From an uncultured Synechococcales cyanobacterium (GTDB lineage Bacteria; Cyanobacteriota; Cyanobacteriia; Thermosynechococcales; Thermosynechococcaceae), in the NCBI GenBank assembly GCA_902806435.1, contig CADCWO010000190.1, forward strand, positions 1 to 33,224: DNA of 33,224 nucleotides, given 5' to 3'. Position numbers and translations under genes: made by a program. This document shows, one piece after another, positions 18,270 through 28,694 of the stretch. The first letter of the stretch is position 1. Each line of letters begins with the position of its first letter. The notes beneath the pieces were generated by a model. That model did no database searches, was not told the DNA's origin, and saw only the letters and a program-made list of their open reading frames with translations.

Positions 18270-20042
18270 CTACTGTGCAGCCTGACGCTGGGCTAAGAGC
18301 TTTTGATAGGCAGCAGTAAAGTCATTAGGCGTGATTTGCACCAGGGTTGGATCTGTGAGACCTTGGCTGCGATGTCGTCGGATTGCCTCTAGAGCCGCTT
18401 GATTACTAAGCAGTGCCAATTCTGCGCCGTTCCAATCCGCTGTTTGGGTAGCCCATTCGGTCAAATCAACCTCCACTAGTGGCCGATTTTGATTATGCAC
18501 CTGCAAAATCGCCAAACGGCTGGCTTCGTCAGGTAAATCGACTTTGAGTTGCAGATCCAATCGCCCTGCCCGCAGTAAAGCAGTGTCCAGCGCTTCTGGC
18601 CGATTTGTCGCCCCGATTAGCAGCACATTGGGGCAGTCCTGAAGACCATCGAGTTCCGTTAGCAGTTGGCCCACAACGCGATCGCTGACGCCAGAATCTC
18701 CCTGGAAGTAGCCACGAGCCGGAGCAAGTGTGTCAATCTCATCAATAAAAACTATGCAAGGAGCAGCTTGCCGGGCTTTGCGGAATAGTTCTCGCACCGC
18801 CTGTTCTGAGGCTCCCACCCAGCGGCTCAGTAATTCTGAGCCATTCACGGCAATAAAGTTGGCTCGCGCTTGGGAGGCCACTGCTTTGGCAAGCAGGGTT
18901 TTACCAGTACCGGGTAGCCCCCATAACAGAATGCCACGCGGCGCTTGAGCACCCGTCTGTTGATAGAGTTCTGGGTAGAGTAGTGCCCCTTCCACTGATT
19001 CTTGGAGAGTCTGCTTGATCTCGTCCAGCCCACCAATTTCTTCCCATAGCACCTGCGGAGATTCCACTTCCACAGAGCGCAGCACCGCCGGTTTCACCTC
19101 CTTGAGGGCCTGAAGAAAGTCCTGTTGGTTAAGCCTCATCGCATCCGGTAGCGGTTCCTTTAAGCTCGGCACTAATCGTCGCAAGGCGCTGTAAGCAGCT
19201 TTTTGAGCCAGAGCTTTTAAGTCAGCACCCACAAAACCGACAGCCAACTCCGCGATCGCCTCCAACTTTACAGAATCATCTAAGGGCATCGCCCGCGTCA
19301 GGATCTGCAAAATCTCCAGGCGGCCATCGCGATCGGGGACGCGAAACCTGACTTCTCGGTCAAAGCGGCCAGGGCGGCGCAACGCTGGGTCAAGATGCTC
19401 AGGCCGGTTGGTTGCGGCGAGGACAATCACGCTTTTGGTGGTCGTAAAGCCGTCCATCAAACCCAGGAGCTGACCGACTAGTCGCTTCTCCACCTCACCT
19501 TCAACGGTGCTGCGGTCTGGGGCAAGGCTATCAATTTCATCAATAAAGATCAGGCAGGGGGCTAAGCGCGCAGCTCTTTCAAAAATTCGTCGTAGGCGCG
19601 ATTCCGCTTCCCCATAGTATTTACCAATCACCTCTGGGCCAACGATTGCAATACAGTTGACGCCTAATTCCTTGGCCAAGGCGCGAGCCGTTAGGGTTTT
19701 ACCAGTACCCGGTGGACCCACTAAGAGAACACCACGGGTCGGTTCTAGACCTAGCTTGGTGAGCAAGTCTGGACGCTTCAGGGGAATCTCAATCAGTTCT
19801 CTTAGTTCTCTAAGCACCTCAGTTAACCCACCGACATCTTCCAGGTGGGGTGAGCTAGCTGAAGAAGTTGAACTTGCAGCAGTTGATTGAGCCTGCTCTT
19901 CAACGTCTAATCCACCAAAGTTGCGGGAGTCGATTTGGATATCTGACCAAATCTCTGTCCAAATTTCCCCTGTCTCAATTTTTTCTTCTAGGGTCTTAGC
20001 GATGTCCAGTAACTCTTCAAACCCTTTGAACAAATCGCTCAT
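18270..20042 (-). CDS. Double AAA+ ATPase, Cdc48/VAT-like, lacking the N-domain
   Basis: 590 aa with two classical AAA modules. D1: Walker A GPPGTGKT (109-116), Walker B FIDEID (166-171), pore loop KYYG, arginine-finger region RRPGRFD. D2: Walker A GLPGTGKT (375-382), Walker B FIDEID (432-437), pore loop RWVG, RAGRLD. Aromatic pore loops in both rings suggest a substrate-threading unfoldase, as in archaeal VAT/PAN. In place of the ~190-residue double-psi-barrel N-domain of Cdc48 there are only ~65 residues: a short helical, acidic stretch and a Ser/Ala-rich linker. Partner or adaptor unknown. A CAP lipoprotein gene lies 77 bp upstream and a PlsC-like gene ~60 bp downstream, all on the minus strand. 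Confidence 0.9.
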   Translation of the reverse strand: MSDLFKGFEELLDIAKTLEEKIETGEIWTEIWSDIQIDSRNFGGLDVEEQAQSTAASSTSSASSPHLEDVGGLTEVLRELRELIEIPLKRPDLLTKLGLEPTRGVLLVGPPGTGKTLTARALAKELGVNCIAIVGPEVIGKYYGEAESRLRRIFERAARLAPCLIFIDEIDSLAPDRSTVEGEVEKRLVGQLLGLMDGFTTTKSVIVLAATNRPEHLDPALRRPGRFDREVRFRVPDRDGRLEILQILTRAMPLDDSVKLEAIAELAVGFVGADLKALAQKAAYSALRRLVPSLKEPLPDAMRLNQQDFLQALKEVKPAVLRSVEVESPQVLWEEIGGLDEIKQTLQESVEGALLYPELYQQTGAQAPRGILLWGLPGTGKTLLAKAVASQARANFIAVNGSELLSRWVGASEQAVRELFRKARQAAPCIVFIDEIDTLAPARGYFQGDSGVSDRVVGQLLTELDGLQDCPNVLLIGATNRPEALDTALLRAGRLDLQLKVDLPDEASRLAILQVHNQNRPLVEVDLTEWATQTADWNGAELALLSNQAALEAIRRHRSQGLTDPTLVQITPNDFTAAYQKLLAQRQAAQ

Positions 20043-22088: not shown

Positions 22089-22601
22089 CTAATACTTGAC
22101 CAGTGCTGTAACAGGTACATCAGGCAAGAGTTTCCGTCCTCCTAGATCTTCAAGCTCAATTACAAAGCCAAAACCAACCAACTCGCAGCCAGCTTGCTCA
22201 ACTAGCTGGGCTGAGGCGGCGGCTGTGCCGCCAGTAGCAAGTAAATCATCAATAATTACAACCCGACTGCCAGGTTCAAAAGCATCTCGATGAATTTCTA
22301 GGCGATCCGCTCTGTACTCTAGCTCGTACTCAACAAAGTGAATGATGTGGGGAAGCTTGCCAGGTTTACGTACCGGAACAAAACCAGCTCCTAGCTTGTA
22401 GGCAATTGGTGCTCCAAAGATAAAACCGCGTGACTCTGCTCCTACCACATAGTCAATCGACTGACTGGCAAATTTTTCTGTAAGTCTATCAACTGTGAAG
22501 CGTAGTGCTTCTGGATTTTGAAGTAGGGTAGTGATATCCCGAAATAAAATTCCTGGTTTTGGGAAATCTGGAATTTCACGAATTAGAGACTTTAAATCCA
22601 T
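22089..22601 (-). CDS. apt: Adenine phosphoribosyltransferase
   Basis: Salvages adenine to AMP using PRPP. The protein is 170 aa, standard length. The opening [22 protein letters not shown] is diagnostic; [14 protein letters not shown] is the base-binding and dimer region; PVRKPGKLP is the flexible loop; [14 protein letters not shown] (114-127) is the PRPP site. Cytoplasmic dimer expected. It is divergent from DUF3038 across ~160 bp. It is a second PRTase besides the one at 10198-10761; the two are not close paralogs. Confidence 0.97.
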
Positions 22602-22760: not shown

Positions 22761-23366
22761 ATGCAAGTAAATAGTCCCACAGATCAGTCTATTCCTTTCA
22801 TTTTGGCTAATCTGCCAGATCCAGCGATTTCGGCTGAGGATTGTCCTCGCCGAACCCGGCTCCAAATTGACTTTATCCTGCTGGCAATCGAAGCCTTAGA
22901 TTTAGACGGCTCTGAAGGGATGCTGGGTGCTGCCCGGGAACTCCAACTACAAAAGTGGATAAAGAATCGAGTCACACTGTGGCGGTTACGCAACAGTAAT
23001 CCTTATCGGCGTTATAGTCAGCGTCGTCCTTTAACGATAGAAGAAGCAAAGGCCCTAGTTGCGATCGCTTGCCATCTAGCCCGGCGACTAACCGTTGTGA
23101 TTCGCCAATTATTATTAGCTAAAGACCAACTAATTAGCCAGCAACTGCCTGCGGACTACCACTTTGGTTTAGCAAGCTATCTGATGAGGTTTCGCACCCA
23201 TTTTCGCAGCCGAATGAACCTGCGACGGACCGGACTTGTTGCCTATAGTTCCGATGAAAAATTGAACGAGTTAGCCTTAGAACTCTTGGGTCAACTCCTC
23301 TTTTGCACAGGAACCGCGGGGATGCAGCGGTTCTGGTCCAGTTTATTTGATGGAGAGGTGGAATGA
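22761..23366 (+). CDS. DUF3038 family protein
   Basis: 201 aa from the ATG at 22761 (a GTG directly before it is also in frame). It matches DUF3038, a cyanobacterial family without assigned function. Mostly helical and basic, no signal peptide or membrane segment: cytoplasmic. Visible blocks include RTRLQIDFILLAIEALDLDGSEGM near the N-terminus, an Arg-rich centre (NPYRRYSQRRPL) and RRTGLVAY. The last four bases (ATGA) overlap the start of the DUF4335 gene, so the two are translationally coupled and probably act together. No clear Shine-Dalgarno. Function unknown. Confidence 0.87.
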   Translation: MQVNSPTDQSIPFILANLPDPAISAEDCPRRTRLQIDFILLAIEALDLDGSEGMLGAARELQLQKWIKNRVTLWRLRNSNPYRRYSQRRPLTIEEAKALVAIACHLARRLTVVIRQLLLAKDQLISQQLPADYHFGLASYLMRFRTHFRSRMNLRRTGLVAYSSDEKLNELALELLGQLLFCTGTAGMQRFWSSLFDGEVE

Positions 23367-24418
23367 CAATCCGGCGTCAATATAGCCTGCCTAATTGCAC
23401 GTTAATTCTAGAAGGATTAAGCACCAGTCGTTCGCCCCAAGTAGAACGGCCTCCCCTAGATATTTTGATGCGTTTTGAATGTCATCTTGCTGGTTTAAGT
23501 AGTCCCTTAACCGGTGGTCGCGAACTCCTAGAAAACTTGGCAGCAGCAGTCAGTCAATTTGCTCAAGAATTTCTGAGTGGAATTAGTCGCTCTAATAGAG
23601 CTACGCTTAACAGCCATTCTGCCTCGGTTCAGTTGCAGAAAATCAATTCAAATGTTGCTCATTTAGTGGTGCAACCAGGATTGCTTAACAGCACTGGAGG
23701 AACTACAACAGAATCAGGTTCGTCCGGCTCACTTCCTCCGCTTGAAGTAGAGTTATCAACGGTGCAAGCGTTCGATCTCGTAGAAGCTTTTGACCAGTTT
23801 TTTGCTGATACTCAGACCCTACCGGACCTAACCCTCAGTTTTAAGCCGCTGTCCAAGCGCGAGTCAACAGCCCACCAACCTGCAACTGAGCGAGCAGTTC
23901 CGATCGCAATCGGGGCAACAAGCCTTACCTTAGCAGCCGGTGCTCTCTTCTTTATTCCGATTCCGGAGGTGGAACCACCACGGCCCACCCCCCAAAAACC
24001 AAACTCCACTCAACCTCTTCCAGCTCAGCCCTCTGGCGGGTCTGAACCTAGCTCAAAATCATCCCAAAAGCATTCCGCAAAAGCAATTTTGGCAGCTAAC
24101 TCTCCGGCTCGTGATCTGCAACTGTTGGCGAAACTTAACCAAAAACTGTACACCCAGATTGACCAAGCTTGGAAAACAGAAGCTAAGTTTAACGAAGATC
24201 TGGTCTATCAAGTTGGCGTCGATCAAGCTGGTAAGATAATTGGATATTTTGCTGTTAATCAAGCAGCGGCTGACTATGTTCAAGAATTACCATTGCTAGA
24301 ACTGCTAGACGGGCTAATACCGGGTCAGAGTGCCCCAAAGCCTTTGGCTCGATTTCAGGTTGTTTTCACCCCTAGTGGTGCTCTTCGGGTCAGCCCTTGG
24401 GGTGGGTATAGGTACTAA
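23363..24418 (+). CDS. DUF4335 family protein with one membrane helix
   Basis: 351 aa, matches DUF4335, which accompanies DUF3038 in cyanobacteria. Layout: N-terminal domain 1-165 beginning IRRQYSLPNCTLILEGLS (probably cytoplasmic); a single hydrophobic helix ~179-200 (VPIAIGATSLTLAAGALFFI); a Pro/Ser-rich spacer ~202-240; and a small C-terminal domain 250-351. In that domain KLYTQIDQAW, then strands VYQVGVDQAGKIIGYFAV and ARFQVVFTPSGALRV, give an order like TolA/TonB C-terminal domains; this likeness is inferred by eye. The start overlaps DUF3038 by ATGA. A hairpin terminator follows. Confidence 0.85.
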   Translation: MTIRRQYSLPNCTLILEGLSTSRSPQVERPPLDILMRFECHLAGLSSPLTGGRELLENLAAAVSQFAQEFLSGISRSNRATLNSHSASVQLQKINSNVAHLVVQPGLLNSTGGTTTESGSSGSLPPLEVELSTVQAFDLVEAFDQFFADTQTLPDLTLSFKPLSKRESTAHQPATERAVPIAIGATSLTLAAGALFFIPIPEVEPPRPTPQKPNSTQPLPAQPSGGSEPSSKSSQKHSAKAILAANSPARDLQLLAKLNQKLYTQIDQAWKTEAKFNEDLVYQVGVDQAGKIIGYFAVNQAAADYVQELPLLELLDGLIPGQSAPKPLARFQVVFTPSGALRVSPWGGYRY

Positions 24419-24479: not shown

Positions 24480-24508
24480 AGCCGTAATCAACGGCTGATA
24501 GGATTTTT
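24480..24508 (+). terminator. Intrinsic terminator after the DUF3038-DUF4335 pair
   Basis: AGCCGT-AATCA-ACGGCT (24480-24496) is followed by a TTTTT tract at 24504-24508. It closes the two-gene unit before the SDR gene. Confidence 0.55.
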
Positions 24509-27792: not shown

Positions 27793-28083
27793 GTGGAGAA
27801 AATTACCTTGTTTAACTTTACTTTGTTTAACTCTACTGTATTGGCAGCTTTAATTCCGGAGCACGGTTGGTCTTGGAATATACCCCTGGTCATTCTAGTG
27901 GCTACTGTAGTTGCGACTCCGTTGACACGTCTGCTGATCACTGAACCTGGTAGGGGACCTAACCTCGTACCTCTACCTCTACCCGCCGGTCTGAAGTGGC
28001 CGGAGCTGTTCGCAGCAGTGAGCATTGGTCATATACTTGGCATATCGACTGTTCTATTCCTGAGATACACTGACTATTTCTAA
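27793..28083 (+). CDS. psaK: PsaK-like photosystem I subunit, divergent form
   Basis: PsaK is a peripheral two-helix subunit at the edge of photosystem I. The longest frame is 96 aa from a GTG at 27793. A TTG at 27808 is better placed: GGAG at 27795-27798 lies 9 nt before it, giving 91 aa (MFNFTLFNST...). No ATG is available. PsaK cues: Trp-Ser just before TM1 (~30-50), then a short stromal loop, then TM2 with the family signature SIGHILG (77-83) and a short C-terminus. The usual GGFG segment before TM2 is replaced by LPAGLKWPEL, so this is a divergent paralog. The first codons contain a 15-bp tandem repeat. Divergent from trpF. Confidence 0.75.
   Translation: MEKITLFNFTLFNSTVLAALIPEHGWSWNIPLVILVATVVATPLTRLLITEPGRGPNLVPLPLPAGLKWPELFAAVSIGHILGISTVLFLRYTDYF
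27807..27836 (+). repeat. 15-bp imperfect tandem repeat in the psaK N-terminus
   Basis: Two copies, CTTGTTTAACTTTAC and TTTGTTTAACTCTAC, match at 13 of 15 positions and encode an in-frame five-residue repeat (LFNFT/LFNST). It overlaps the alternative TTG start at 27808. Confidence 0.7.
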
Positions 28084-28166: not shown

Positions 28167-28694
28167 ATGGACAAGCTAATCGCTTGGCTGAGCAATATTC
28201 GCCTCAGACAAACATTAATTATTTTTGTGTTTGGAATTGTGTTTCTGGTAAGCACAGCTTGTAGCGGCGGTAATACACAAGCAAGCTCTAGTACCAAACC
28301 AACGACACCGGAAGCGAGTGCTTATCAAACAGACCTCAAGGGAGTAGATCAGCCCAGTGGTAATAATCTGAGCCAAGCCAACCAAGAGTATGTTCTTGCT
28401 GCCATAAGTGACAATCTACCCAGGAATAGGGACCAGGCAGCTGAACGGGCGATTGAAAACGCTAAAAGTGCTGGCAACAACCAGTTTGCCAAAACGAATC
28501 AGAGTAGTGGCAATGTTTTAGAGGACGTTCGTGAAAAACTTAATCTTGACGAACCTCTTTATCCGCCAACGAAAGAGGTCTTAAATGATGTTGAAAACAT
28601 AGCCAAAGAGACCACTAAGGGCACCCAACGGGTTGCAGAAGATACGGTTGAGGGTACGAGGCAAGCTGTAGAAAGTACAGTCAAGAGTAGATAG
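28167..28694 (+). CDS. Cyanobacterial lipoprotein with helical C-terminal repeats
   Basis: 175 aa. The N-terminus has two Arg/Lys followed by a hydrophobic core ending VSTAC, with a probable lipid-modified Cys32; the -3 residue is Ser, weaker than the usual Leu/Val. After a polar linker the C-terminal ~50 residues repeat the pattern of Thr/Val/Glu/Lys-rich helix (ENIAKETTKGTQRVAEDTVEG), like LEA or apolipoprotein-type amphipathic repeats. I believe this family is sometimes labelled DUF6658, but that is from memory. GGAG precedes the ATG by ~7 nt. It follows psaK by 83 bp and may be co-transcribed. Function unknown; possibly membrane or stress related. Confidence 0.72.
   Translation: MDKLIAWLSNIRLRQTLIIFVFGIVFLVSTACSGGNTQASSSTKPTTPEASAYQTDLKGVDQPSGNNLSQANQEYVLAAISDNLPRNRDQAAERAIENAKSAGNNQFAKTNQSSGNVLEDVREKLNLDEPLYPPTKEVLNDVENIAKETTKGTQRVAEDTVEGTRQAVESTVKSR

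Follow-up and report, generated by a model that had tools for sequence, protein, structure and literature searches.

The DUF3038 and DUF4335 genes, which lie together in the window (the whole stretch of 33,224 nucleotides that was analyzed), are predicted to encode two proteins that form a membrane-tethered module for thylakoid biogenesis or organization, an assignment to which we give an even chance. The pair bears on the origin of thylakoids, being apparently confined to thylakoid-bearing cyanobacteria and kept there almost universally, and few known proteins, to our knowledge, show such a distribution. A plant protein with a thylakoid phenotype is a plausible counterpart, and the pair is open to simple gene deletion in laboratory cyanobacteria.

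Organization and pairing of the two genes

The DUF3038 gene (22761-23366, plus strand) starts at ATG 22761, or alternatively at GTG 22758, and encodes a basic, helix-rich protein of about 201 amino acids, which is predicted to be cytoplasmic. The DUF4335 gene (23363-24418, plus strand) encodes a protein of 351 amino acids. In the Pfam search, the former product matched PF11237 over profile positions 1-168 of 168 (E 6.7e-66; 221.9 bits against a cut-off of 25) and the latter matched PF14233 over profile positions 1-186 of 186 (E 1.6e-57; 194.9 bits against a cut-off of 27), indicating that both are full-length members, far above the curated cut-offs. Sequence searches detected no relatives of DUF3038 or DUF4335 among solved structures, the NCBIfam scan gave only a sub-threshold match to TraP, the Rfam search found nothing, and the viral contigs searched contained neither DUF3038 nor DUF4335. 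The literature search retrieved no mention of DUF3038, one paper naming DUF4335, and no localization, interaction, or phenotype data on the cyanobacterial DUF3038 and DUF4335 proteins.

The stop codon of DUF3038 and the start codon of DUF4335 share the four bases ATGA (23363-23366, plus strand), as read from the sequence and as an earlier note on this DNA had stated. Many genomes carry two paralogous DUF3038-DUF4335 pairs (pair A and pair B), and the genome of the window (4.8 Mb) also has a further, paralogous pair, which lies on a different contig. The identical four-base overlap was found in 46 of 85 distinct pair-A loci, and the gap between the two genes was zero or less in 61 of the 85, while the pair-B genes lay at most 200 bp apart in 21 of 22 cases. 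Judging from this gene layout, DUF3038 and DUF4335 are likely to be translationally coupled. The closest locus found to that of the window, with 58% identity, belonged to a Thermosynechococcaceae record.

The Pfam search of 292 genomes of the phylum detected DUF3038 in 138 and DUF4335 in 132. The six genomes with DUF3038 but no Pfam DUF4335 were small and Prochlorococcus-like, and a custom DUF4335 profile, which already included two Prochlorococcus-like sequences, located DUF4335 beside DUF3038 in all six of them (E about 1e-33). Since the custom profile recovers all six, DUF3038 and DUF4335 occur in the same genomes. No fused DUF3038-DUF4335 protein was seen among the sampled genomes. In the f13 genomes (e.g., loci L089 and L090 of G056), the pair-A genes were mostly split to distant chromosomal sites, and both were retained.

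The DUF3038 tree contained one clean B clade (100/100), which takes in the single copies of families f25 and f53, with f9, f18, and the picocyanobacteria outside it. This clean clade indicates that the pair was duplicated early and as a unit. The divergence of DUF3038 was correlated with that of DUF4335 beyond the divergence of apt (partial r 0.62; 21 genomes). The pair-A partners are oppositely charged, with a mean pI of 9.3 for DUF3038 versus 5.1 for the N-terminal domain of DUF4335; the pair-B DUF3038 proteins, with a mean pI of 6.7, are not basic. The coupling of the two genes suggested earlier is thus supported by co-occurrence, adjacency, co-duplication, and joint absence from genomes.

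Domain layout and topology of DUF4335

Structure models were built with AlphaFold2 from three or four sequences only (a four-sequence alignment for DUF4335). The DUF3038 model was all-helical and of low confidence (pLDDT 49), too poor for a fold search, whereas DUF4335 was modeled as two medium-confidence domains, between which lies a disordered stretch containing the membrane helix. The N-terminal domain comprises residues 1-157 (23363-23833, plus strand; core pLDDT about 70-80) and is predicted to be cytoplasmic. It is followed by a single membrane helix at the hydropathy peak (residues 180-198; 23900-23956, plus strand), a Pro/Ser-rich linker of low pLDDT with 9 Pro and 9 Ser in 46 residues (residues 202-247; 23966-24103, plus strand), and a C-terminal domain (residues 248-347; 24104-24403, plus strand), which is predicted to lie outside the cytoplasm. 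Hydropathy, composition, and the AlphaFold2 model therefore agree with the layout of folded N-domain, one helix, Pro/Ser spacer, and compact C-domain that was read from the sequence before.

Lys and Arg residues around the helix were more frequent on the N-side in 80 of 107 DUF4335 proteins and on the C-side in 7 of the 107, a positive-inside bias from which DUF4335 is predicted to cross the membrane once with the N-terminus inside and the C-terminus outside. The conserved motif IPIPEV (residues 198-203; 23954-23971, plus strand) is located at the predicted lumenal or periplasmic end of the helix. P199 and P201 were conserved in at least 90% of 63 DUF4335 homologs, and a PxPE-like motif followed the helix in 72 of 85 pair-A proteins. 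The N-domain and the helix are kept throughout the DUF4335 family, usually joined in pair A by the Pro-x-Pro-Glu-like motif; the conserved core is DUF3038 together with the acidic DUF4335 N-domain and the helix.

The N-domain model consists of two units, each with strands followed by a helix. With this medium-confidence model, VIA matched 2it9 (Z 8.8), 2nvn (Z 8.3), and human PURA (Z 8.0), and the Foldseek match to PURA had an E value of 3.8e-4. The structural matches include the nucleic-acid binders PUR-alpha, Whirly, and MRP1/2 and also the cell-division proteins SsgA/SsgB. PUR-alpha, Whirly, SsgB, 2it9, and 2nvn have a fold in common with the N-domain but no sequence similarity to it. Because the Z values barely exceed those reached by models without a clear match, the fold is named PUR/Whirly-like with caution. 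The DUF4335 N-domains are acidic in both paralogs (mean pI 5.07; net charge about -7), so the common fold with PUR-alpha and Whirly does not show nucleic-acid binding. The entries 2it9 and 2nvn are solved cyanobacterial proteins of unknown function that have the PUR/Whirly-like fold.

C-terminal domain with a probable TolA/TonB-like fold

The C-domain model was fairly confident, with pLDDT mostly of 75-86 over residues 250-310. Its elements are a helix (residues 248-269), a strand (280-286), a Gly-turn, a strand (292-297), short helices, and two further strands (329-335 and 341-345), and G290, within VDQAGKII, is the sole invariant residue among 76 C-domain copies. This order bears out the helix followed by strands with a Gly-turn that had been proposed from the letters. 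VIA matched TolA domain III with low Z values of 4.1-4.9 and TonB with a Z value of 3.5, also low, and of the matches listed for this domain alone, every one except a single entry was to TolA domain III, TonB, or FusB.

In the Pfam scans of homologs, TonB_2 (PF13103) was the top family, with matches at E up to 1 in 27 of 76 domains and 20 of 63 proteins. Most of these matches were below the cut-off, and one homolog passed it (E 2.3e-6; 28.1 bits against a cut-off of 22); the C-domain of the window itself gave no TonB_2 match at E 1. Since the structural matches are nearly all to TolA, TonB, or FusB and homologs match TonB_2, the likeness to TolA/TonB domains that was suggested earlier is probably right, and the modeled C-domain probably has a fold like that of TolA domain III and TonB.

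The C-domain is optional in the family. It was undetectable in 31 of 107 distinct DUF4335 proteins, including all picocyanobacterial copies tested and several other families, and most of the proteins without it stop shortly after the helix. Two C-domains in tandem were found in many copies of family f7 (Nostocaceae-like) and in others, and the pair-B DUF4335 proteins have one, at the very end. The C-domain search in five genomes gave matches only in known DUF4335 frames, except for one match in G089.

Distribution among cyanobacteria and relation to thylakoids

DUF3038 was present in 376 of 388 genomes of the class. The 12 genomes without it comprised nine in families f47, f54, and f55, two that are 62-68% complete and whose relatives have DUF3038, and G051. 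In the nine f47/f54/f55 genomes, no DUF4335 above the threshold and no CurT/CAAD (PF14159) was found, and PsaA/PsaB were carried by each of the seven in which they were looked for. Mutually rooted PsaA and PsaB trees placed f47 and f54/f55 apart from all other sampled lineages, with the deepest order not fully resolved. We infer from the tree position and the lack of CurT that f47, f54, and f55 are Gloeobacterales, which have no thylakoids (PMC13326532). In addition, about 153 genomes of other classes contained neither DUF3038 nor DUF4335. What this work adds to the Pfam families is that they are strictly paired, form two paralogous pairs, and are missing from the genomes assigned to Gloeobacterales.

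G051, which belongs to the same family as the f7 genomes, is near-complete (3.8 Mb, one contig); photosystem I and CurT are present in it, and both genes of both pairs are missing. A DUF3038-like match in this genome (E 0.04) had stops inside it and was rejected as noise after tblastn. G051 has lost both genes and is a natural knock-out, and its retention of photosystem I and CurT indicates that the module is not strictly required.

The distribution resembles that of CurT/CURT1 (CAAD), which is likewise missing from the Gloeobacterales-like genomes and found in most of those with thylakoids. However, the sequence of CurT is unrelated to those of the pair, and in f25 and f53 the pair is present whereas the CAAD profile finds nothing. 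Being near-universal in the expected thylakoid-bearers and lacking in the thylakoid-less lineage, the pair is a good candidate for thylakoid building or organization. This correlation amounts to a single gain at the root of the thylakoid-bearing cyanobacteria, a point at which numerous unrelated genes appeared as well. A survey of such candidates, published in 2026, dealt with membrane-trafficking proteins and photosystem II assembly factors and names no DUF family in its text (PMC13326532).

Reported weak similarity to the plant protein ANU10

Casanova-Saez et al. described Arabidopsis ANGULATA10 (ANU10, At1g28530) as a protein of 614 amino acids with one helix (residues 421-443), which is located in thylakoid membranes and is required for thylakoid biogenesis and grana (PMC4036511). 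A Pfam match of ANU10 to DUF4335 was of low significance, and the authors, who found no obvious cyanobacterial ortholog, called the family plant-specific (PMC4036511). According to a 2025 review, the molecular function of ANU10 is still unknown (PMC12427647). With a single helix, a large part N-terminal to it, and about 170 residues C-terminal to it, ANU10 has the layout of the long form of DUF4335, but it differs in its transit peptide and its length of 614 amino acids. A relation between DUF4335 and ANU10 is plausible and rests on the published low-significance match.

Proposed role of the module and alternative explanations

In the preferred reading, the basic, helical, and cytoplasmic DUF3038 would be translated together with DUF4335 and would dock on its acidic, PUR/Whirly-like N-domain, and the complex would sit at the thylakoid membrane, which DUF4335 would span once in the N-in/C-out orientation suggested by the charge bias. 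In many species, one or two domains of tentatively TolA/TonB_2-like fold would serve as binding modules in the lumen or periplasm. The module may be a passive scaffold or recruitment platform, not a transducer of proton-motive force, by which a cytoplasmic process, e.g., photosystem or lipid assembly or membrane shaping, would be tied to the membrane. It would have arisen on the stem of the thylakoid-bearing cyanobacteria, and both genes would have been duplicated together early on; plastids probably inherited it as ANU10, as the published weak similarity suggests. It is possible, although we propose it tentatively, that the pair is a dedicated thylakoid-biogenesis complex that arose with thylakoids and was inherited by chloroplasts as ANU10, in which DUF3038 recruits cytoplasmic assembly factors and re-used TolA/TonB-like domains reach the lumen.

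With one gain only, thylakoids cannot be told apart from other traits that arose on that stem, and the pair may instead be a factor of the envelope in general (plasma membrane) in crown cyanobacteria that was gained with thylakoids but is unrelated to them, and whose TolA-like domain meets periplasmic cell-wall or outer-membrane partners. The resemblance of the C-domain to periplasmic TolA/TonB modules and the retention of photosystem I and CurT by G051 without the pair are consistent with such a factor; it is nevertheless doubtful, as the C-domain is missing where the rest is retained, and a possible distant relative in plants has been described in thylakoid membranes and has a thylakoid phenotype. 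A tether for nucleic acids or ribosomes, in which the DUF4335 N-domain or the basic DUF3038 brings mRNAs or the nucleoid to thylakoids, is unlikely. The structural matches of the N-domain to PUR-alpha, Whirly, and MRP1/2, the strongly basic pair-A DUF3038, and the position of pair B after mutS2 in 11 of 20 loci argue for it, but the N-domain is acidic, the structures that it matches best are of functionally uncharacterized proteins, SsgA/SsgB have the fold too, and the pair-B DUF3038 is not basic.

Energy transducers of the TonB/TolA type are marked by an N-terminal membrane anchor with a short cytoplasmic tail and a conserved His in the helix. The order of helix, Pro-rich spacer, and C-domain and the TolA/TonB-like fold and profile similarity of the latter recall these proteins, and the earlier note had likened the layout of the pair to an envelope-spanning transducer. 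However, DUF4335 lacks their whole-protein architecture and motor hallmarks: His was found in or beside the helix in 2 of 107 proteins, the helix comes after a large folded domain that is predicted to be cytoplasmic and is not an anchor of the TonB/TolA type, and neither ExbB/ExbD nor TolQ/TolR recurred next to the pair in the neighborhood survey of loci. Because these motor-related features are absent and the C-domain is dispensable, it is very unlikely that DUF4335 draws on membrane energy to work across the envelope, as TonB and TolA do. Of the earlier reading, the coupling of the genes, an N-in/C-out layout, with which the charge bias agrees, and the likeness of the C-domain were supported; an energized, TonB-like version of the transducer was not.

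Flanking sequence and neighboring genes

An inverted repeat downstream of the pair (24480-24496) had been taken as part of a terminator at 24480-24508 closing the unit. It was no better than shuffled sequence, and its T-run is on the minus strand only; on the plus strand, TTTTT occurs about 8 nt past the stem. A plus-strand terminator was rejected, with 4 such sites in the region compared with 3.4 expected from shuffled sequence. Upstream, the apt gene (adenine phosphoribosyltransferase; 22089-22601, minus strand) is a divergent neighbor outside the unit. The statement that the pair is not joined to apt was right as to strand, yet the divergent arrangement is conserved in 21 of 43 pair-A loci.

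A conserved protein of 91-107 amino acids without a Pfam match is encoded upstream of pair A in 12 loci (e.g., L076:10834-11109). Among the 20 pair-B loci (L105-L124), 11 have the pair downstream of a mutS2 gene of the same orientation. Elsewhere in the window, a gene for a double-AAA, Cdc48-like ATPase is located at 18270-20042 (minus strand), and a gene at 27793-28083 (plus strand) codes for a small protein with a match to the PsaG/PsaK family of photosystem I and is followed by a DUF6658 gene at 28167-28694.
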